From contig JAQUVX010000023.1 of the NCBI GenBank assembly GCA_028693165.1, positions 1 to 64,000 of the forward strand: DNA of 64,000 nucleotides, in the 5' to 3' direction. This DNA comes from Lachnospiraceae bacterium (GTDB taxonomy: Bacteria; Bacillota; Clostridia; Lachnospirales; Lachnospiraceae). Position 1 is the first letter of the stretch. The number at the start of each line of letters is the position of its first letter. The notes below the pieces were generated by a model that saw only the letters and a program-made list of their open reading frames with translations, made no database searches and had not been told where the DNA came from. Below are positions 20,430-30,372 of this stretch, piece after piece. The translations under genes were made by a program, and so were the position numbers.

Positions 20430-22514
20430 CTACATTCCCAGCTCCATTCTCTCAATAATATGGTCCTGGTATACCTCGTCAAGCTCTACAAAATATCCGC
20501 TCCAGCCCCACACTCTCACAATCAGATTCCGGTAATTTTCCGGGTGTGCCTTGGCATCCTTCATTTTATCACGGTTTACTGCATTGATCTGCATCTGGTG
20601 GCCTCCCATATCCATGAAGCTCTTTACAAACATGGCCACCTTACGGATGCTGTCTTCGTTGCGGAACAGCGTATCATGCAGCTCAATGGTCAGAGGACCG
20701 CCGTTTGCCACCCGCATCAGATGGGGCTTGGAAAATGACTTAATAATCGAAATTGGTCCGTTTAAACGGGTAAATAAACTGGGGGAATAGTTGCAGGCTA
20801 AGGCCTCGCCTCTTCTTCGCCCGTCTGCTGTCGGCACTTCCGCCCTGGCATGCCAGATATAATACATAGCCGATCCTGTGCCTGCACGGAAAATCCCGCC
20901 TCTGTCATTATGTACGCCCTCCAAAGAGTCAGCAAACCAGTCCAGAAGCTTCACAGCGATACCATCCACGGCATCGTCATCATTTCCCATCTTCGGTGCT
21001 TCAAACCGCAGCATATTCTGAACTTCTTCCTTCCCCGCAAAGTCATGATCCAGCATAGTCAGAAGCTCCTCTGCCGTAAATGCCCTCTCCTTAAACACAT
21101 ATTTCTCAATCGCAGCCAGAGAATCCACCGCTGTGGAAAGTCCAGTTCCGTGAATACCGTAGTTATTATATTTATTCCCCTTAGATACGTCCTGGGCTCT
21201 CCCGATACTGCCCTCCATCATAAGGCTCATCAGAGGCGCCGGTTCCATATAGACGTTCTTTGCGGATTCCATCAGTTCCACTGCCTGCTCTGACACTGCT
21301 GCCTTTACAATCTCTAAAAACTCCTCGAAGGCAGTGCACTGCGGAAGTTTTTCCATGCTGGAAATAACGGCATGGGCAAAGGAGAGACCGTTGACGTTTG
21401 GAATGTCCATTCCACGGCCGGGAATGATGAACTCCCAGCAGGCTGCCACTACATAATTATAGGCGTCCTGTTCCTCGTAACCCCAGCGTTTTAACGCCGG
21501 AATAATCACATCGTCATTGGCATACTGCGGAAACCCCAGTCCCTGCTTCGTCAGCATAGTTCCTTTTTCATACATCTCGACAGGTGTATTCTTATTGACT
21601 CTTAAGTTGATTTTGGGATCAATCAGTTTCAGTTCCAAGCTGGCCTGCAGGCAAAGGTCTGATAAATCATTATAAGACTCTGTACCATCGATATTTAAAC
21701 CGCCAAGCACCATACTCTGGCCATTATCCCCCTGCTGCATTCCTGTGTACAGATCACTGTCCTTATTACAGGAAATAAAGAACTCCTCAATCAGTTCCAG
21801 TGCCGTCTCTTTATCGAGTATTCCATTTTCAATATCGTTAATATAGTAGGAATACATATACTGATCGAAACGCCCAAAGGTATTGTGATAGTTAAAGCTG
21901 CTCCACAGGCAGTAATGCACCAGACGGAGAAACTGAAGTGCCTCCCGGAAATTCTCAGCGCCCTTTGCAGGAATACGGCTTAGCACTTCTGCTGCCTCTG
22001 TATTGCCAACCCGCTCCGCCTCTTTGCGGTAGCGGTCTGCAAACTCCGTAATCAGATCCAGCACTTCTAAAAGAGCATTTAGATACTCCCGCTTCTCACT
22101 TGATTCCACATCTTCCGCATCATCAGTAAGAACTTGCAGCACCCCCTTAATTTCCTCACGCTTCTTATCAAAACCTGCTGCGATCAGCATATCATAAGCC
22201 GGGTTAATGTTGCAGACCTTCCCCTGTTCGTGAATATAATGTTCTTTCTTAATTCCCTCAAACTCACGCTCCGTAAAGATCTCCGGAACTGTCGTCACTG
22301 TCCTTAGAAGCACAATTTTTTCATCCGGATAAACCACCGGCTTCTCATGCTTAAGCATATAGGCCAAGCGTCTGACCGTCCGCTGTAAATCCGTCAAAGC
22401 TTCTTTTTCATACCGCACCGCTTCTCTGTATTTATCTGCGGGAGCTTCTCTATACTGCTTCTGCTCTTTCTCTACAATAAAACGATCCAGTAATTTTTCT
22501 ATATAGGTTGTCAT
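20430..22514 (-). CDS. Glycyl radical enzyme of unknown substrate (PFL-like family)
   Basis: 694 residues. The thiyl-radical site is VVAACWEF, with Cys359 and the C-x-E glutamate (Glu361) that dehydratase/lyase members use as base; pyruvate formate-lyase has Cys-Cys instead. The glycyl-radical loop is RVWGWSGYF near the end, with Gly670 as the likely radical site. NTFGRFDQYMY (211-221) and GLGFPQYANDD (325-335) are family motifs. It is shorter than pyruvate formate-lyase or choline and diol lyases (about 760-850). The activase gene lies 33 bases upstream, with an AllA-like cupin and a ribose-type ABC importer in the same operon, so the substrate is probably an imported sugar, polyol or derivative. 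No microcompartment or aldehyde dehydrogenase gene is nearby. ATG 22514 has GGAGG seven bases upstream. Confidence 0.88.
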   Translation of the reverse strand: MTTYIEKLLDRFIVEKEQKQYREAPADKYREAVRYEKEALTDLQRTVRRLAYMLKHEKPVVYPDEKIVLLRTVTTVPEIFTEREFEGIKKEHYIHEQGKVCNINPAYDMLIAAGFDKKREEIKGVLQVLTDDAEDVESSEKREYLNALLEVLDLITEFADRYRKEAERVGNTEAAEVLSRIPAKGAENFREALQFLRLVHYCLWSSFNYHNTFGRFDQYMYSYYINDIENGILDKETALELIEEFFISCNKDSDLYTGMQQGDNGQSMVLGGLNIDGTESYNDLSDLCLQASLELKLIDPKINLRVNKNTPVEMYEKGTMLTKQGLGFPQYANDDVIIPALKRWGYEEQDAYNYVVAACWEFIIPGRGMDIPNVNGLSFAHAVISSMEKLPQCTAFEEFLEIVKAAVSEQAVELMESAKNVYMEPAPLMSLMMEGSIGRAQDVSKGNKYNNYGIHGTGLSTAVDSLAAIEKYVFKERAFTAEELLTMLDHDFAGKEEVQNMLRFEAPKMGNDDDAVDGIAVKLLDWFADSLEGVHNDRGGIFRAGTGSAMYYIWHARAEVPTADGRRRGEALACNYSPSLFTRLNGPISIIKSFSKPHLMRVANGGPLTIELHDTLFRNEDSIRKVAMFVKSFMDMGGHQMQINAVNRDKMKDAKAHPENYRNLIVRVWGWSGYFVELDEVYQDHIIERMELGM

Positions 22515-22547
22515 TATTTCCTCCGTTCCCAATTTCTTTTGATAACC

Positions 22548-23399
22548 TCACATTGTACGGCACTCGATCCCCACCTGTGAAAATGCCTCTGTATCCAGAT
22601 TGGGGACCTGATTAATGTCAAATTCCGGCCGGTAGGTCCGTCCTACCATCTCATATTTTGCCCCGGCTGTTTTATGATAAGGAAGCAGCTCCACCATTTC
22701 CAGATTCCCGGCCCCTGATAAAAGTGCCGCTGTCTGCCGGTAATTCTCCTCCGAATCATTTACCCCCGGAATAACGGGAATTCTGATTCGAAATGGTTTC
22801 CCACTCCGTTTCACCTGTTCCAGATTATCAAGAATCAGGCTGTTATCCACCCCCGTGTAAAGCTTATGTTGTTCCCTGTCAGCCAGTTTTATATCCATAA
22901 TGACATAATCCAGTTCTTCTAAAATCCTCGCAAATACGTCTGTCTGACAATAACCGCAGGTTTCAATTGTGCGGTGCATACTCTTTAAACGTTTCAGACA
23001 CTCAAGCAAAAACTCCGACTGCATGGTCGGCTCTCCACCGGAAAAAGTAACACCGCCGCCCTGTCGGTTCAAATAATCGGCGTCCCTTAGGAGTCGCTCC
23101 GCCAAAATCTCTGCTGTCATTCTGTCACCGCAGAGTTTAATCAGACGGTTGGGACAGGCCTTAACGCAGTCTCCGCAGAGCACGCAATTTCCCAGATGAG
23201 TACAGACCTCCCGGCATCTGCCACAGCCGACGCAGCCGTTTTTAGAAATCATAAGCTGCGGGTTCACAGATAAACCTTCCGGATTGTGGCACCACTTACA
23301 CCTCAAAGGGCAGCCCTTTAGAAAAACCGTGGTTCTGATTCCCGGCCCATCGAAAACGGCAAACTCCTTAATGTCAAAAATGATCCCCTCTTTACTCAT
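22548..23399 (-). CDS. Glycyl-radical enzyme activase (radical SAM)
   Basis: 283 residues. The radical SAM cluster motif is CPLRCKWC (Cys30, 34, 37). An inserted double ferredoxin-type domain has eight cysteines (56, 59, 62, 66 and 72, 75, 78, 82), which places it with activases of dehydratase-type glycyl radical enzymes rather than with the short PflA. GGVTFSGGEPTMQ is the SAM-binding GGE region. It installs the radical on the enzyme encoded next. The ATG overlaps the cupin stop (ATGA). Confidence 0.93.
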   Translation of the reverse strand: MSKEGIIFDIKEFAVFDGPGIRTTVFLKGCPLRCKWCHNPEGLSVNPQLMISKNGCVGCGRCREVCTHLGNCVLCGDCVKACPNRLIKLCGDRMTAEILAERLLRDADYLNRQGGGVTFSGGEPTMQSEFLLECLKRLKSMHRTIETCGYCQTDVFARILEELDYVIMDIKLADREQHKLYTGVDNSLILDNLEQVKRSGKPFRIRIPVIPGVNDSEENYRQTAALLSGAGNLEMVELLPYHKTAGAKYEMVGRTYRPEFDINQVPNLDTEAFSQVGIECRTM

Positions 23400-23887
23400 A
23401 CCTCCAGTTCCAGCTTTTCATCATCCCCCAGCGTTTTTTTGACACAGTCATTGGCATAGGTTCTCTCTGGCAGCATCACAAGCGAATGAATCTTACTGTC
23501 ACCGGCAGGATAAGGCGCATAATGCCAAACGCCTGGATGGATGTAAACCGCCGTTCCTGACGGCACGAAAAATGCTTCCATCTGATCCGGCTGAAGAACT
23601 GCATCCGCCGTAGCCGGTCCCACGCAAATATACGTATCTCCATCGAGAGATAAGAAACATTCACCCGTTTTTGTATGAAATTCCATGGTGTCCACGATCT
23701 TTGCCATCGGCTCCACCGCTGTTACGGACAGAGAAAGTGTCTCGTGACCGCTAAGAGGCAGCATGTCCCGGTAAAACAGAATCGGATTTTCTCCAATACT
23801 CGGAGACTGGGGATTCAGCAGATTCGCACATCGCCCATAAACCGAAAAATCGCTGTCTAATATGTTTTTTACTTCCAATTTTTTCAT
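23396..23887 (-). CDS. AllA/DUF4867-like cupin-fold protein
   Basis: 163 residues resembling ureidoglycolate lyase (AllA) and DUF4867 proteins: an N-terminal DFSVYGRCANLL, the beta-strand MEFHTKTGECFLSLDGD, and HPGVWHYAPYP near 125-135, which supply the His and Glu residues typical of the metal or substrate pocket. The true substrate is unknown; in this operon it may isomerise, cleave or deaminate an intermediate of the glycyl-radical pathway. AAGGAG precedes ATG 23887; it lies 27 bases after the ABC ATPase gene. Confidence 0.65.
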   Translation of the reverse strand: MKKLEVKNILDSDFSVYGRCANLLNPQSPSIGENPILFYRDMLPLSGHETLSLSVTAVEPMAKIVDTMEFHTKTGECFLSLDGDTYICVGPATADAVLQPDQMEAFFVPSGTAVYIHPGVWHYAPYPAGDSKIHSLVMLPERTYANDCVKKTLGDDEKLELEV

Positions 23888-23914
23888 TGTTTTAATCTCC
23901 TTTTATAATAGAAC

Positions 23915-25432
23915 TTATATTGTATGGGAGAGAATGGTCTCCTGTTTAAACTCTTCGCGGTCCGTAAGTTCCGCAGAAATCGTGCCACGGCGCATTACAT
24001 AAATCCTGTCACTCATTCCGATCAACTCCGGAAGCTCTGAAGAGATCATGAGAATTGCCACCCCCTGTTTTGCCAGATCATCGATAATCTGATAAATCTC
24101 CGATTTAGCATTAACGTCAATACCTCTTGTAGGTTCGTCGAGGATCAAAAGCATCGGTTTACTGTTCAGCCATTTGGCCAGAGCCACCTTCTGCTGGTTT
24201 CCGCCGCTCAGAGTATTGGCAAGCTGCTCCCCGGAGGTGCAGACAATATTTAAGTTCTTTATCATCTCATCAGAGGCTTTTTCTTCTTCGTTTCTTCTGA
24301 TATATCCATTTTTAAACATCTCAGACAAAGAAGCCAGCGTAATATTCTGCTCGATATTCATCCGCAGCACGAGACCTTCGATTTTACGATCCTCCGTCAG
24401 GTACATAAGACCTTTTTGGATCATAGATTTCGGTGTCGGTTTTGTGATCTCTTCACCTTTATAAATGATTTTTCCGCCATAAAACTTTCTGGCTCCGAAA
24501 ACGCTCTTTGCAACCTCCGTACGCCCCGCCCCCACCAGGCCGCCAATTCCTACCACCTCTCCTTTATTTACATGGAGATTCAATGGCTCTGTATGAGGTC
24601 CGATCTTAAGTCCTTCCACTCGAAGAACCTCTTCTTTCTGTGGTGTATGCGTGCAGGTATACATCTGTCCCAATGTACGTCCTACCATCATGCTGATGAC
24701 TTTATCATGGCTGAAATCCGCCATATCAATGGTTCCCACATAGCAGCCGTCACGAAGAACGGTCAGACGGTCACCAATTTCCTTTAATTCCTCAAAGCGG
24801 TGGGAAATATAGATAATACTGATTCCCTGTTTTTTCATGCTGCGGATAATATCAAACAGGTGGTCAATCTCTGTTTGGGTCAAACTGGCTGTCGGCTCAT
24901 CCATAATGATAATTTTAGAGTCGCAGGAAATTGCTTTTACGATCTCCACGATCTGCTGCTGTGCAGTAGATAAATTTCTGACCAGAACATTTGGATCGAT
25001 ATCGAATCCCAATCTCATAAGCATCTGGCGGCTCTCGTCACACATCTGCTTTTTCTTACTGAATACATTGCCTTTTCCGGTGATTTCTCTTCCGAGGAAC
25101 AGGTTTTCCGCCACACTTAAGTTGGGGCACAGGTTAAGCTCCTGATGGATAAATCCGACTCCCATTTCCTCTGCCTGCTTCGGATTGGTAAAATGTACTT
25201 CCTTCCCGAACAGCTCCACAGTGCCCTCATCCTGAGGAATAATACCGCCGAGAATTTTCATCAGCGTGGATTTTCCTGCGCCGTTTTCCCCAATCAAGAT
25301 ATGCACCTCTGACTCGCATACGTCAAAGTGAACATCCTCTAAGATCTTGACATCCGTACCGCGGATTGGCTTTCCGTAGGCGTCAAAGATAAATTTAGTT
25401 ATATGATCCATTTTCAAAATGGTTTTGCTCAT
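23915..25432 (-). CDS. Ribose-type ABC transporter, double ATPase (RbsA family)
   Basis: 505 residues with two ATPase domains. The first has a complete Walker A GENGAGKST, signature LSTAQQQ and Walker B IIIMDEPTA. The second has the degenerate Walker A GGLVGAGRTEV usual in this family, signature LSGGNQQK and ILDEPTRGID. It powers import of the ligand bound by the lipoprotein at 27500-28522. ATG 25432 has AAGGAGG upstream. Confidence 0.93.
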   Translation of the reverse strand: MSKTILKMDHITKFIFDAYGKPIRGTDVKILEDVHFDVCESEVHILIGENGAGKSTLMKILGGIIPQDEGTVELFGKEVHFTNPKQAEEMGVGFIHQELNLCPNLSVAENLFLGREITGKGNVFSKKKQMCDESRQMLMRLGFDIDPNVLVRNLSTAQQQIVEIVKAISCDSKIIIMDEPTASLTQTEIDHLFDIIRSMKKQGISIIYISHRFEELKEIGDRLTVLRDGCYVGTIDMADFSHDKVISMMVGRTLGQMYTCTHTPQKEEVLRVEGLKIGPHTEPLNLHVNKGEVVGIGGLVGAGRTEVAKSVFGARKFYGGKIIYKGEEITKPTPKSMIQKGLMYLTEDRKIEGLVLRMNIEQNITLASLSEMFKNGYIRRNEEEKASDEMIKNLNIVCTSGEQLANTLSGGNQQKVALAKWLNSKPMLLILDEPTRGIDVNAKSEIYQIIDDLAKQGVAILMISSELPELIGMSDRIYVMRRGTISAELTDREEFKQETILSHTI

Positions 25433-25445
25433 CTGGAACGCCTCC

Positions 25446-26423
25446 TTACAGCTTTCTGTTTTTAACATTTTCAAAGATGATAGCAGCTAAAATGATGATT
25501 CCCATAATAGCATCGTAGAGATAGTAAGCTGCGTTCATCAGGTTGATACAGTTTCCAATTACCTTGATCGTCATAACACCGAACATAGCACCTATAACCG
25601 AACCGATACCGCCAAACAGGCTGACACCGCCAAGAACCGCCCCCGTTATGATTTCAAAGGTATAACCGCCGCCACCCATGGTCGGCTGTGCACAGTTTAC
25701 ATCGATGGAAAGCAGAATTCCAACAAGGGCTGCCAGCACGGAGCTGACCACATAAACCGTCACATTGATTCTGGCTGTTGCCACACCGCTCAGCCGGCTG
25801 GCCGGTTCGCTTAAACCAAAGGCCGACAGGTTTCTTCCGAAGGTGGATTTATGCAGAATATAGTAAAATACAATACAGATGATCGCACTGATCAAAACTG
25901 TCGTATTCAGCCCTAAAAGCTCTGTCTTTCCGATTGCCAGAAATCCCTTGGGAAGCCGGTTAACCGACTCGCCGTGGCTGACGATCTCCGCAATACCATA
26001 AATAATATATCCTGTTCCCAGCGTTGTAATAAAGGCCGGAACCTTAATGGACTGAACACAGAATCCATTGATTAATCCGATGACCGAACCCACACCCAGG
26101 GTGATCAGAATGGCCGGTATGTAAGCCATCTCGTGTGTTTTTACAAGCATACCTACAATCGTGGAACAAAGTCCTATGGTATATCCCAAGGACAGATCAA
26201 TACCGCCGGTCATGAGAACCATCGTCATGCCGATACAGGCAATGATCGGGATCGCCGACTGCTTCACGATCAGGAGCAGATTGTTCGCAGATGCAAATCT
26301 GGGAACAAAGAGAGCGGCAATGATACATATGATGATAAAAATCACGACGCTGCCATTTCTCTTAATATACGTCTTCAGCGCCTGCTTTTTCTTATTGTCC
26401 GAATTATTTTGCTCTTTACCCAT
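25446..26423 (-). CDS. Ribose-type ABC transporter permease (RbsC family), first copy
   Basis: 325 residues with about eight to ten membrane segments and the family motifs GMTMVLMTGGIDLSLG and GAVLGGVSLFGGIGSVIGAMFG, which form the ATPase-coupling region. ATG 26423 has GAAGG upstream; a GTG five codons earlier has its ribosome site too close. Paired with a second permease, so the pore is likely a heterodimer. Confidence 0.92.
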   Translation of the reverse strand: MGKEQNNSDNKKKQALKTYIKRNGSVVIFIIICIIAALFVPRFASANNLLLIVKQSAIPIIACIGMTMVLMTGGIDLSLGYTIGLCSTIVGMLVKTHEMAYIPAILITLGVGSVIGLINGFCVQSIKVPAFITTLGTGYIIYGIAEIVSHGESVNRLPKGFLAIGKTELLGLNTTVLISAIICIVFYYILHKSTFGRNLSAFGLSEPASRLSGVATARINVTVYVVSSVLAALVGILLSIDVNCAQPTMGGGGYTFEIITGAVLGGVSLFGGIGSVIGAMFGVMTIKVIGNCINLMNAAYYLYDAIMGIIILAAIIFENVKNRKL

Positions 26424-26449
26424 TGTTTTTCCCTTCACTATCCTTATGC

Positions 26450-27418
26450 TTAGAATACTTTGGCTGCTTCAATCTTCTTATTGCGGTTGTAAATGGACAC
26501 TGCCACAATTACGATGATGATAACACCGATTACCAGGTTCTGATAGAACGGATGCAGACCGTACAAATTCAAGCCGTTACGCAGAAATCCGATTAACAGT
26601 GCACCCACTAATGAAAGGTAGACCTTTCCTTCTCCGCCGGCCATATTCACGCCGCCAATTACACAGGCCGCTACCGCATCCAACTGATAGTTGCCGCCCT
26701 GGGTCGGATGAACCGTATTCATTTGTGCGCTCAGCAGAATCCCTGCTACCGCTGCGCAAAATCCAGAAAAGGCAAAAACAAAGTAATTGATTTTTGCCGT
26801 ACTGATACCCTGCTGCTTTACAACCATGTCATTTCCGCCCAATGCATAAATATAAGTGCCGAGACGGGTACGCCCCATAATAAGCGCTGATACGATACAG
26901 AAAATAAAGGTGATGTAGTTAGAAATCGGCATTCCAAGGATTGTTCCGTTACCGATGAATACATATTCCTTTGGAAAACCGCCGAGCGATCCGCCGCCAT
27001 TTAACATAAGGGCGATACCGCTGGCCACCTGACCTACCACGAGAGTCGTGATAAATGCCGGAACCTCCAGTTTTTCGACCATAATACCGTTAAAGAGACC
27101 CATGAGGGCACCGGCCAGAAGTCCTGTACCGATCGCAAGCCAGATGGAAACTCCGCTCTTCATCATAAGACCGCTGATCATTGCACAGCTGGCAATAATT
27201 CCGCCTACAGATAAATCGATTCCCTTTACAATGATAACCATGGTCATACCATAGGCCACCAGGGAGACAATAGAGCTCTGTCTGATTACGTTAAAAATAT
27301 TTTTTACTGTGAGATAATTCGGGATGCGGGATCCTACAATTAAGAAAAGTATGACAGCCCCCGCAATCAGTATTGTTTTTTTAGATATCTTCAAATTTTT
27401 GTCCTTCACAACTCCCAT
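26450..27418 (-). CDS. Ribose-type ABC transporter permease (RbsC family), second copy
   Basis: 322 residues, topology as in its neighbour, with GMTMVIIVKGIDLSVGG and CVIGGVNMAGGEGKV as coupling motifs. The start is uncertain: ATG 27418 has AAAGG very close, and a GTG three codons on is equally possible. It follows the binding-protein gene across an 81-base gap that contains a hairpin. Confidence 0.92.
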   Translation of the reverse strand: MGVVKDKNLKISKKTILIAGAVILFLIVGSRIPNYLTVKNIFNVIRQSSIVSLVAYGMTMVIIVKGIDLSVGGIIASCAMISGLMMKSGVSIWLAIGTGLLAGALMGLFNGIMVEKLEVPAFITTLVVGQVASGIALMLNGGGSLGGFPKEYVFIGNGTILGMPISNYITFIFCIVSALIMGRTRLGTYIYALGGNDMVVKQQGISTAKINYFVFAFSGFCAAVAGILLSAQMNTVHPTQGGNYQLDAVAACVIGGVNMAGGEGKVYLSLVGALLIGFLRNGLNLYGLHPFYQNLVIGVIIIVIVAVSIYNRNKKIEAAKVF

Positions 27419-27456
27419 ACCTTTCTGTGAATAATAAAAAATATGCCTTTAAGGGA

Positions 27457-27489
27457 AATGGAGCGGCCACTTCATCCAGCCGCTCCATT
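27457..27489 (-). repeat. Intra-operon hairpin between binding protein and permease
   Basis: An 11-bp perfect inverted repeat (AATGGAGCGGC, 27457-27467; complement 27479-27489). No U tract follows directly, so it probably stabilises the upstream binding-protein mRNA or attenuates partly, as is common after binding-protein genes. Confidence 0.6.
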
Positions 27490-27499
27490 GTGTTACATC

Positions 27500-28522
27500 T
27501 TACTTCATATCTTCAATGGTAACACATTCTGTACCGGAGTCGATGTATTTCTCAACACTTGCCGGATCTGTTTTTCCATCTAATACGCCAACTAAAGTAT
27601 CAACTGCAATTTTTCCCATGTGGTCCGGGAACTGAGCCATAGTACCAAGCACAAGGCCCTCTTTGATCAGGGCTTTTCCATCATCGGAACCATCAAAGCT
27701 CATGATCTCAATCCCCTCACGTTTTGCATCTTCCATGGCCTGAAGAATACCGTCAAGCATTACGTCAGATGCTGTAAAAAGTCCGTTTACATCAGGATTA
27801 GCCTGAAGCATGTTCTCTGTAACCTGTTTTGCAATATCGTTGCTCCAGTCGCCTGGCTGCTCGCCTACAATCTTAATTCCGTCGCCAAGTCCGGCTTTAA
27901 ATCCCTCTACGCGTGCGTCACCTACAGAGTTTCCGTTGGCGCCTCTGACAATCACTACGTTTCCTGTATTGCCCAATTTCTCGGTCAGTTTCTCTGCACC
28001 GATCTTAGCTGCGCTGTAGTTGTCTGTGCCAACATATGTAATGTATAAATCTTCGTTACCTTCTGCGATCGTACTGTCTACCAGTACCACCGGAATTCCG
28101 GCGTCTTTCGCTTTCTGCAGAGCAGGAACAACTGCGTTGGCGTCCATCGGATTTACGATGATCGCGCTTACACCCTTAGCAATTAAGTCCTCGATCTGTG
28201 TAACCTGTGTGGATACTGCTGTCTCATCGCCTGCTGTAACAAGTGTAAACTTGTGGCCTGCACCCTCCACATTAGTCTGGATGGCATCTGCGATTCCGCT
28301 CTGGAATGCATCGTTTGTAACCGTCTTTAAGCTGAAAGCGATCTCATACTGCTTTCCTGCCTCCGGTGCTTCGGTCGCTGCTGCATCTGCCGCTGCTGCT
28401 TCTGTAGCTGCCGGTGCTTCCGTCTTAGGTGCTTCTGTAGCCGGTGCTGCTGACTGGCTGGAACATCCCGCCAGACCCATTACCATGCCGGAAACAAGTA
28501 ACGTTGCAAGTAATTTCTTCAT
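27500..28522 (-). CDS. Ribose-type ABC transporter substrate-binding lipoprotein (RbsB family)
   Basis: 340 residues. The signal peptide ends in the lipobox LAGC (Cys near 20), followed by an Ala/Glu/Pro/Thr-rich spacer and a periplasmic-binding fold of the RbsB type (AFSLKTVTNDAFQSGIADAI, IVNPMDANAVVPALQKAKDAGIPVVLVDS, FTASDVMLDGILQAM). The ligand is not readable from sequence. First gene of the seven-gene island operon. ATG 28522 is behind GGAGG. Confidence 0.93.
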   Translation of the reverse strand: MKKLLATLLVSGMVMGLAGCSSQSAAPATEAPKTEAPAATEAAAADAAATEAPEAGKQYEIAFSLKTVTNDAFQSGIADAIQTNVEGAGHKFTLVTAGDETAVSTQVTQIEDLIAKGVSAIIVNPMDANAVVPALQKAKDAGIPVVLVDSTIAEGNEDLYITYVGTDNYSAAKIGAEKLTEKLGNTGNVVIVRGANGNSVGDARVEGFKAGLGDGIKIVGEQPGDWSNDIAKQVTENMLQANPDVNGLFTASDVMLDGILQAMEDAKREGIEIMSFDGSDDGKALIKEGLVLGTMAQFPDHMGKIAVDTLVGVLDGKTDPASVEKYIDSGTECVTIEDMK

Positions 28523-28562
28523 TTGATTTCCTCCCATACATTTGTTTTATAGTTTTCTCCTA

Positions 28563-28588
28563 CATTAACGTTCACATTAACGTTAATG
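28563..28588. promoter_or_regulatory. LacI-type operator of the glycyl-radical island
   Basis: Perfect palindrome CATTAACGTTAATG at 28575-28588, preceded by a partial repeat CATTAACGTT at 28563-28572 (12-bp offset). It lies just downstream of the -10 box, where a repressor would block transcription. The same palindrome precedes the repressor gene (29832-29845). Confidence 0.85.
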
Positions 28589-28595
28589 TATTTTC

Positions 28596-28624
28596 ATAGT
28601 ATACGTTTTAACCACAAATGTCAA
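28596..28624 (-). promoter_or_regulatory. Promoter of the glycyl-radical island operon
   Basis: Minus strand: TTGACA (28619-28624), 17-bp spacer, TACTAT (28596-28601). An overlapping TATACT would give a 15-bp spacer. Adjacent to the operator. Confidence 0.75.
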
Positions 28625-28697
28625 GATCTATTTTTATTTTTTGGTAATTTTTATTTAAATCTGGAAAGAATCCTGCATACGGGATTTTTGCAGAGCA

Positions 28698-28747
28698 AAA
28701 AAATACCATATTTCGTCTTCGCAATATCTGCTTTAACAAAATATGGT
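28698..28747 (-). terminator. Terminator of the LacI-family regulator gene
   Basis: Minus strand: ACCATATTT and AAATATGGT (28739-28747 and 28705-28713), then ATTTTTTT. The stem starts inside the end of the gene's downstream region, before the island promoter. Confidence 0.7.
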
Positions 28748-28755
28748 ACGGCTCA

Positions 28756-29811
28756 TTATGATTGTTCGCTAATGTTTCGGACTGTTTCTCCCTTTACCAA
28801 TGCGGTTTTAATCACATGGCGACAAATATCTTCACAGGATGCCCCCTGCTCCTCCATGTTTTTATGATCAGGATTAATTTTGCAATGAAGGCAGTCGACT
28901 GCAGTGATTGACATCTTCGCTTTATAGGAGCTTATGGTCGTCAACTGAAAGGGAATTGCCATTCTGGACTGAATATGGTCAAACCCGATAATGGAAATAT
29001 CCTGTGGCACGCTATAGCCATGGTTGTGGAGCCAGGCCCACGCTTCCCACGCCAGACTGTCACTAAATGCAAAAATGCCTGTATACTCGATTTTATCCTT
29101 TTTAAGCTGTTCTAAAATATCCGGAATATTACTTTGAGAGACAGAAACGGTCTTAATGAGTTTAGGGTCCACCGGCACACCTGCCTCTTCATGTGCTTTC
29201 AAGTAACCTTTATAGCGTTCCTTGGATGAAGAAATATAAGAGGGTCCATTCAAAAACAAAATTCTCCTATGTCCGTTTTCGAGCAGATGTTTTGCCGCAA
29301 GGTATCCGCCCTGAATATCATCACAAACCACATAGTTTGCATCCAGTCCTTCTGTATACCGTCCAATCTGGATAAAGGGCACCTTCGACTGCATCAGAAA
29401 ACGAATGTTGGAATCATCCTCCTGGGTTGGACAGATGATAATGCCATCCACATTTTTATTGATGGCCGTTTTAATTGCCGATCGTTCCAATTCACTGTTT
29501 TCATTTGTATTTAACAAAAATGTACTATAGCCATATTTTCTGCCGTGATTTTCGATTTCCTTTGTCATAATGGAGAAATGAGGATTGGAAATGTCTCCCA
29601 GAATTACGGCTATGGTATTTGTATAGCCAAGACGCAGAGAAGAGGCAATCGTGTTGTTAATATACCCCATCTCTCTGGCCGTTTGTTTGATCTTATCAAT
29701 CGTTTCTTCCGCAATATCATCCTTGCTTCTTAATGCCCTTGATACTGTATTGATGCTATAGCCGGTCTTTTCAGCCAGGTCTTTTAATGTTATTGTTCTC
29801 TTTTGCCTTTT
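28756..29811 (-). CDS. LacI-family transcriptional regulator of the island
   Basis: 351 residues from GTG 29811: the helix-turn-helix ITLKDLAEKTGYSINTVSRALR is directly at the N-terminus, followed by a periplasmic-binding-type effector domain (IAVILGDISNPHFS, ISIIGFDH, ending ISEQS). A longer reading to 29865 would include the operator in coding sequence, so I prefer the GTG. The promoter's -10 lies in the operator, implying autoregulation. The effector is presumably the island's substrate or a product of it. Confidence 0.9.
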   Translation of the reverse strand, partial: KRQKRTITLKDLAEKTGYSINTVSRALRSKDDIAEETIDKIKQTAREMGYINNTIASSLRLGYTNTIAVILGDISNPHFSIMTKEIENHGRKYGYSTFLLNTNENSELERSAIKTAINKNVDGIIICPTQEDDSNIRFLMQSKVPFIQIGRYTEGLDANYVVCDDIQGGYLAAKHLLENGHRRILFLNGPSYISSSKERYKGYLKAHEEAGVPVDPKLIKTVSVSQSNIPDILEQLKKDKIEYTGIFAFSDSLAWEAWAWLHNHGYSVPQDISIIGFDHIQSRMAIPFQLTTISSYKAKMSITAVDCLHCKINPDHKNMEEQGASCEDICRHVIKTALVKGETVRNISEQS

Positions 29812-29831
29812 CACCCACTCACCCGCCTTTG

Positions 29832-29845
29832 CATTAACGTTAATG
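29832..29845. promoter_or_regulatory. LacI-type operator at the regulator's own promoter
   Basis: CATTAACGTTAATG, identical to the operator at 28575-28588; the identity extends to TA on one side. Confidence 0.85.
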
Positions 29846-29865
29846 TAAAAATACATTTTTGTCAA
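29837..29865 (-). promoter_or_regulatory. Promoter of the LacI-family regulator
   Basis: Minus strand: TTGACA (29860-29865), 17-bp spacer, TAACGT (29837-29842). The -10 box lies within the operator. Predicted start near 29830 fits the GTG at 29811. Confidence 0.6.
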
Positions 29866-30125: not shown

Positions 30126-30372
30126 ATTTGCACTTAACTCTGCTTTTAGTATACAGGAATAAATTACTATTTGACAAGTAAATTAAAACTATTCCCTCTT
30201 ACAACTTTTTACTTTCTGGTATCCTAAGCATGATTCCTTGTAATTATCAGGCTTTGACTTGTTGCGCAGTCTTCCCCTCACGAATGGCCTGATGTGATTT
30301 CTACTCGTCACACCAGCGATTTGCCATCCGGCTTCTTTCAGATTTGTCATCATCGCCCGCCGAACACACAGC

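Follow-up and report, generated by a model that had tools for sequence, protein, structure and literature searches.

What does a glycyl radical enzyme (GRE) do in an operon that also encodes a sugar importer, and on which compound does it act? Few GRE chemistries have been assigned so far. The question is raised by a locus in the first 64,000 nucleotides of contig JAQUVX010000023.1 of a Lachnospiraceae bacterium, a stretch that we call the window. The locus consists of eight genes, all on the minus strand, and their place, order and families agree with a preliminary description of this DNA: a GRE (PF02901 and PF01228), a radical SAM activase, a cupin (PF04115/PF16161), a double ATP-binding cassette (ABC) ATPase, two permeases (PF02653), a sugar-binding protein (SBP; PF13407) and a LacI regulator. 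Only the start sites of lacI and of the SBP and ATPase genes had to be corrected. In our assessment, it is very probable that the operon is real and regulated, that it centres on a GRE subfamily not yet characterised, and that it serves sugar catabolism.

A distinct branch of glycyl radical enzymes

With its PFL-like barrel and C-terminal glycyl radical domain, the enzyme belongs to the GRE superfamily. When 37 sequences are aligned (the window's included), Cys359, Glu361, Gly670 and Asp370 do not vary and H210 hardly does. Lys301 and Arg543 are conserved as well. The subfamily is sharply bounded: 77 of 78 relatives are 46-81% identical to the window GRE and one is 38% identical, and four other GREs found in the same searches share 26-29% identity with it. 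Among the 50 structures listed, no solved GRE exceeds 28% identity by structural alignment; glycerol dehydratase reaches 33% by sequence alignment. None of the curated NCBIfam GRE cut-offs (PFL, HypD, HpsG/HpfG, CutC, IAD and HPAD models) was reached, a test that covers the subgroups that have a model. The top scores were 350 bits against 678.2 for TIGR01774 at the subfamily level, and 301.4 against 1100 for the best equivalog. Scores, alignment and structure comparison agree with the proposal that this is a Cys-x-Glu eliminase type rather than a pyruvate formate-lyase. The unmet cut-offs, and the identities of about 28-33% or less to solved GREs, likewise place it outside the characterised subgroups, among those that could be tested. 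Cys433, Glu435, His281 and Asp447 of glycerol dehydratase all have counterparts in the sequence alignment. His164 and Tyr339 of glycerol dehydratase, which act at the substrate, correspond to Asn102 and Gly265, and both replacements are invariant in the 37 aligned members.

Members of the subfamily were found in eight phyla, and many of their sources are gut or rumen by record titles. Seven of 86 rows, being shorter than 630 aa, were removed before alignment and tree building. The active-site motifs are nearly identical in seven groups that comprise 68 of the remaining 79 rows, 11 long-branched or lone rows being left out of the group consensus. Such near-constancy across phyla suggests a shared chemistry. 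No study of this subfamily was among the papers listed by a literature search; likely sources on GRE clusters lay outside that search, so we claim no novelty in print. As far as these comparisons reach, the branch is distinct, widespread and uncharacterised.

Gene neighbourhoods were compared over 86 loci, the window included, in which genes within 10 kb of the GRE were labelled by similarity to annotated seeds. The locus table omits L120 (from the same genome as L008), L081, L082, L133 and L135 (other GREs), and L027, L040, L046, L059, L075 and L130 (no GRE open reading frame (ORF) kept, or none that reached the threshold). Contigs are often cut and labels are limited to annotated families, so that all neighbour counts are lower bounds. 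Genes in the fetched loci were called automatically, with errors such as those in the activase of L012 and in the cupin and activase of L123, and since the ATPase label also picks up unrelated ABC ATPases, the permease label was used instead. An activase label accompanies the GRE in 71 of the 86 loci, and the activase of the window scores 292.9 bits against a TIGR02494 cut-off of 174.35. The window's genome also contains a second, distant GRE (contig C31:2101-3937; L002 and L003), in two pieces with 25% and 33% identity and open frames of 724 and 101 aa.

Table 1. Features of the locus, with positions in the window.
Feature	Position	Strand	Remark
Glycyl radical enzyme, 694 aa	20430..22514	-	Cys359, Glu361, Gly670; 'AACWE / VRVWGWSGYF' subfamily, uncharacterised
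Radical SAM glycyl-radical activase, 283 aa	22548..23399	-	ferredoxin-like cluster insert
AllA/DUF4867-like cupin, 163 aa	23396..23887	-	metal-ligand pattern E69, H71, E76, H122
Double ATPase, CUT2-type sugar ABC importer	23915..25432	-	listed ORF extends to TTG 25474
CUT2 permease	25446..26438	-	top NCBIfam score AraH, under its cut-off
CUT2 permease	26450..27418	-	top NCBIfam score ribose permease, under its cut-off
Ribose-type sugar-binding lipoprotein (SBP)	27500..28522	-	listed ORF extends to 28537
Predicted degenerate second operator, 3 mismatches, overlapping the primary	28562..28577	.	from a mismatch scan of the window
Predicted primary LacI operator ACATTAACGTTAATGT, perfect palindrome	28574..28589	.	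read from the sequence
Promoter-like site of the operon, TTGACA-17-TACTAT	28596..28624	-	upstream of SBP gene
LacI-family repressor, 352 aa, GTG start	28756..29814	-	orthologues accompany the GRE in a set of relatives
Operator copy in the lacI leader, one mismatch	29831..29846	.	would allow autoregulation

The most likely start of lacI is GTG 29814 (352 aa, MKRQKRTITLKDLAEK...) rather than TTG 29865, which is disfavoured because its extension would run through the operator. For the SBP, ATG 28522 is the likeliest start, downstream of its Shine-Dalgarno sequence, and for the ATPase it is probably ATG 25432, with which an apparent 29-nt overlap disappears. These corrections rest on reading frames, Shine-Dalgarno position and the operator. 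The GRE has 694 aa from ATG 22514, or 700 from the listed TTG 22532. The gaps are 81 bp between SBP and permease, 11 bp between the permeases and 27 bp between ATPase and cupin; the cupin and activase genes overlap by 4 bp, and 33 bp separate the activase from the ATG of the GRE (15 from the TTG). Upstream of lacI, a group II intron D1-D4 segment was matched by Rfam at 30197-30359 (minus strand, 45.2 bits, gathering score 32), with no long ORF listed beside it. It may be a relic at the border of a transferred block.

Operators and the LacI regulon

How is the locus controlled? One good promoter-like site precedes the SBP gene, as had been described, and the palindrome follows it directly. The promoter scan gave 25 promoter-like sites against 17.9 in shuffles, and the operon site rests on its position and score. 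If up to three mismatches are allowed, the window contains three operator matches where 0.08 would be expected. If no more than one is allowed, the 3.6-Mb assembly has the operator at only two places, at the operon and at lacI, bearing out the earlier pairing of a LacI-type regulator with a matching operator. The regulator (PF00356, 41.7 bits) and the CG-centred palindrome at the promoters that it is predicted to regulate would make these operators of the LacI type. Its best model is RbsR, and the ribose-specific NCBIfam cut-offs were not reached (RbsR 203.1 against 382 bits, RbsA 514.1 against 745, RbsB 136 against 337).

Orthologues of this regulator stand beside the GRE in Lachnospiraceae, other Clostridia and Spirochaetota, at 54-78% identity. 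Those of L047, L127 and L130 are 42-43% identical, and five loci (L008, L010, L011, L121 and L123) have an unrelated LacI in place of the orthologue. Among 397 genomes of the family, the window's included, the orthologue (E up to 1e-60, with at most five candidates scored per genome) occurs in seven, the GRE in 15 and both in six, a co-occurrence with a hypergeometric p of 6.6e-9 when shared ancestry is ignored.

The operator was found, with at most one mismatch, in 11 of 22 chosen GRE genomes besides the window's, at 17 places; a reversed-pattern control appeared in two of the 22. Operators were present at GRE loci in both Bacillota and Spirochaetota. Outside G362, most sites are found a short way upstream of a gene for the binding protein, activase, GRE or LacI, in some cases only after an early-called gene start is moved; sites in L009, L078, L124 and L178 lie within, or at a distance from, a called start that was probably placed too early. 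In the closest relative, L056, lacI is 15 kb off, under its own operator copy. A one-mismatch operator precedes a GH127 gene by 56 bp in L118, and the N-terminus of this gene's product reads as a signal peptide. In L178, a two-mismatch operator is located within the 5' end, as called, of a gene for aldose 1-epimerase (GalM), and lacI comes after this gene; L177 has a one-mismatch operator within an ORF ahead of lacI, and L018 has one two-mismatch site with no gene start nearby. The seventh genome with the regulator, G272, has no GRE match. Its regulator is 38% identical and stands beside a looser related palindrome and a gene that resembles an annotated GH51-like arabinofuranosidase; we read the other homologues there as importer-like genes. 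Together, these sites and orthologues support a predicted dedicated LacI control of the GRE locus.

The second locus of G362 (L176) has a matching operator but was not used to infer the substrate, since its LacI shares only 37% identity and another LacI accompanies the GRE of this genome. At L176 8075-16686, this paralogous LacI, with nearly identical recognition-helix letters and the same operator, belongs to an operon with an SftI-like isomerase and a CUT2 importer. This may represent crosstalk or a motif shared between LacI paralogues.

The substrate and the reaction

If the operon is dedicated to one compound, what is that compound, and what does the GRE do to it? The preliminary description had proposed an imported sugar, polyol or ureido-type compound. 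The CUT2 importer and the ribose-type SBP favour the first two. The best solved relatives of the SBP are generic ribose or monosaccharide binders (at most 125 bits) that imply no specificity, and reading the substrate from the SBP was dropped. Near the GRE, a XylE-like porter is labelled in 21 of the 86 loci, a CUT2 permease in 16, a GH127/GH51-type gene in 15 and any glycosidase in 24. A kinase is labelled in 10, an aldolase in 11 (the DeoC of L010 adds a twelfth), an aldo/keto reductase (AKR) or alcohol dehydrogenase (ADH) in 10, an SftI/FucI-like isomerase in six and GalM in three (L012, L119 and L122). Many relatives lie in loci for sugar breakdown, which include sugar importers, arabinofuranosidases, rhamnosidases, kinases and aldolases, and unrelated neighbours occur too, among them histidine kinases, a tRNA synthetase, a class III ribonucleotide reductase and a MurJ flippase. 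The regulon and the neighbours (GH127, GalM and GH51-like genes) favour a plant sugar of the arabinose type.

Our tentative answer, held at a little less than an even chance, is that the operon is inducible, repressed by LacI, and serves the breakdown of a small sugar or sugar alcohol derived from plant cell walls; the GRE would dehydrate this compound to a deoxy-sugar, which would then be phosphorylated and cleaved. An arabinose-type pentose or pentitol would be the most likely substrate. From the gene for the repressor, the operators at the promoter of this gene and at that of the operon, the CUT2 ABC importer, the GRE with its activase and the metal-ligand pattern of the cupin, all read directly in the sequence, we infer the substrate, the reaction and a pathway of four steps. 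The sugar would relieve LacI repression and enter unphosphorylated. The cupin could then act as a mutarotase-like protein or ring-opener that supplies the right form of the sugar, a role that GalM could fill in related regulons. In the third step, the activase would install the Gly670 radical, which would pass to Cys359, and Cys359 would abstract the hydrogen atom adjacent to a hydroxyl, assisted by Glu361 and Asp370. The neighbouring C-O bond would be lost as in diol dehydratases, giving a deoxy-sugar; the form that we favour is a C1/C2 dehydration to a 2-deoxyaldose. Finally, the product would be phosphorylated and split by an aldolase into triose phosphate and a small aldehyde. Several relatives encode this last step in the cluster. 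The window's operon, which had been called self-contained, lacks kinase, aldolase and dehydrogenase genes of the kind that several relatives add, and its host would need genes elsewhere in the genome. Unlinked homologues exist there (FGGY kinases at 33% and 28%, AKRs at 56%, 30% and 31%, and one DeoC), which is no proof of a pathway.

The favoured form of the third step draws on five genomes (L008, L010, L011, L121 and L123) with a deoxyribose-phosphate aldolase (DeoC) gene within the GRE cluster or at its border. AKR and GH88 genes are found in all five clusters, SGL (gluconolactonase-like) and Zn-ADH genes in four (L008, L010, L121 and L123) and an FGGY kinase gene in three (L010, L121 and L123). 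The stretch read for L011 stops within DeoC, and L008 has its DeoC and Zn-ADH genes on the opposite strand. The GRE-linked DeoCs form one clade (100/100), separate from the other DeoCs of the same genomes. DeoC needs a 2-deoxyaldose 5-phosphate, which C1/C2 dehydration of a pentitol followed by phosphorylation would supply; the AKR could produce the pentitol. It is possible, although we regard it as doubtful, that the whole subfamily is isofunctional across phyla in a 'radical deoxy-pentose' fermentation. A pentitol made from plant pentose by the AKR, or the pentose itself, would be dehydrated radically at C1/C2 to a 2-deoxypentose and phosphorylated, and the dedicated DeoC paralogue would split the product into acetaldehyde and triose phosphate. 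Part of the family would be under a LacI-operator pair conserved from Lachnospiraceae to Spirochaetota. A DeoC of the same clade was also observed at L200 9578-13920, in a GRE-less operon with Zn-ADH, GFO/IDH/MocA-like and FGGY-kinase-like genes, a candidate for another 2-deoxy-sugar pathway.

Several observations weigh against a LacI-controlled dehydration of an arabinose-type sugar to a 2-deoxyaldose. In 11 of the 22 searched GRE genomes, no operator with one mismatch or fewer was found, and three of the 17 sites, those in G362, serve a different LacI. Asn for His164 and Gly for Tyr339 may mean that the leaving group is handled differently. Most of the 86 loci are without a labelled kinase or aldolase, many contigs being cut. 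The DeoC clade includes one member from a GRE-less operon, and the DeoC loci carry an unrelated LacI (about 25% identity), so that their substrate may differ from that of the window. L004, L012, L014 and L127 carry an SftI/FucI-like isomerase and a class II ketose-phosphate aldolase, a misfit because a 2-deoxyaldose cannot be isomerised to a 2-ketose. The lactonase-like SGL gene near several DeoC-type clusters is left unexplained by the proposed steps. Lastly, 16 of 24 chosen GRE genomes have AraA (AraA_N), which makes an unusual sugar or sugar alcohol likelier than plain L-arabinose. Plain L-arabinose, with the GRE replacing the AraA route, is disfavoured on this count, although the window's genome (94% complete) gave no AraA match.

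The alternative that survives best, unlikely as we judge it, is a ring-opening C-O lyase acting on an anhydro-sugar or cyclic polyol to give a 1-deoxyketose, as an unphosphorylated counterpart of YbiW/PflD (compared with the window GRE below). Less probable still is a C1/C2 dehydration of the cyclic aldose itself to a 2-deoxyaldonolactone that a lactonase would open. The SGL gene adjoins the GRE in L008, is close to it in L121 and L123 and further off in L010, and a metallo-beta-lactamase-fold gene is near the GRE in L041 and L044; however, the SGL match is only partial, the window operon has no lactonase gene, and the dedicated DeoC would be left unexplained. We give the same low probability to a dehydratase of a short diol or triol from sugar breakdown (ethylene glycol, glycerol, 1,2-propanediol or a tetritol). 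Its catalytic residues are those of glycerol dehydratase, which is also the best profile and sequence match, and the aldolases and aldehyde reductases near some of the relatives' genes could make such polyols. Against this stand the Gly and Asn at the positions of Tyr339 and His164 in the 37 aligned members, scores far under the cut-offs of the matching NCBIfam dehydratase models, an operon without aldehyde dehydrogenase or microcompartment genes, and import of the substrate via a sugar-type binding protein.

The remaining component of the dehydration pathway that we favour is the cupin, which exceeds the gathering scores of both PF04115 (37.1 against 23 bits) and PF16161 (36.1 against 28.7 bits). 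Among solved structures, it matches best a DUF4867 protein encoded in a sulfosugar gene cluster (E = 1.8e-11), and AllA-type structures come a close second (E = 3.1e-10). E69, H71, E76 and H122 are invariant in 24 relatives and align with E97, H99, E103 and H150 of SqvB, given as the metal ligands of this DUF4867 structure in the available text of PMC11968277. The same text proposes sugar ring-opening or mutarotation for the family as an unproven function. A ureido or allantoin-type pathway, with the cupin as ureidoglycolate lyase (AllA), is very improbable and disfavoured: the PF04115 match speaks for it, but the NCBIfam models for that enzyme are far from reached (28.2 against 160 bits for the subfamily, 26.7 against 212 for the best equivalog), the top structure is of the DUF4867 type, the annotated neighbours in relatives are mostly sugar genes, and 81 of the 86 loci have no cupin label near the GRE.

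The cupin as a fixed next step after the GRE, proposed earlier, does not stand either. Its label is found near the GRE in five of the 86 loci, which rules it out as an obligatory partner, and it is directly beside the activase gene in four only (the window, L056, L121 and L123). Some link between cupin and GRE is nevertheless likely, because 9 of 15 GRE genomes carry a cupin relative, compared to 30 of 397 in the family overall (p = 8.6e-8, ignoring ancestry and genome size); the remaining 21 cupin genomes are without this GRE. Elsewhere, cupin genes are part of different operons, some of which also contain ADH, CUT2 and FGGY genes, and two loci combine the cupin with another GRE. At these two, L133 (9525-11900) and L135 (4557-6932), the different GRE has 791 aa and is accompanied by two activase-like genes; proteins of 89-99 aa encoded there may, at a guess, be microcompartment shell proteins. 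In L148 and L151, the cupin gene is beside SftI-like isomerase, PfkB kinase, AKR and class II aldolase-like genes, possibly a non-sulfonated counterpart of sulfoglycolysis.

A single substrate assignment would probably annotate the whole GRE branch, and could add a radical route to the fermentation of plant sugars or sugar alcohols. The LacI-operator pair and the binding proteins offer direct handles for finding the substrate.

Comparison with known systems

The B12-independent glycerol and 1,2-propanediol dehydratases (1r8w/1r9d, 5i2g) resemble the window GRE in fold, thiyl Cys, Glu of the CxE motif, His281 and Asp447 equivalents, glycyl loop and radical SAM activase. The window enzyme differs in sharing only 28% identity by structure and 33% by sequence alignment, in being 93 residues shorter than 1r8w, and in having Asn for His164 and Gly for Tyr339. 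Its locus has a sugar importer and no microcompartment or aldehyde dehydrogenase gene. A tied-best structural match is to YbiW/PflD (8id7, 8id0, 8yjo), which open the ring of anhydrohexitol-6-phosphates and are also GREs of sugar catabolism. In their known pathway, an aldolase step follows. They are 25-27% identical to the window GRE, and no model named for their activity was among the matches. Their substrates are phosphorylated and imported by the phosphotransferase system (PTS), according to the available text of PMC12441222. Where these systems use the PTS, the window has a CUT2 importer.

For the cupin, the closest comparison is SftX/SqvB, the DUF4867 cupin of sulfoglycolysis (9gyy), which has the same four metal ligands and shares local sequence similarity only (the profile match given above). 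As in that system, the cupin gene adjoins an SftI-like isomerase gene in L124, L148 and L151. Finally, ribose operons are laid out as RbsR, RbsABC and RbsD/RbsK. The operon in the window shares with them a LacI repressor, a CUT2 importer and a small protein that would change the form of the sugar, and it has a GRE and its activase where ribose operons have ribokinase.

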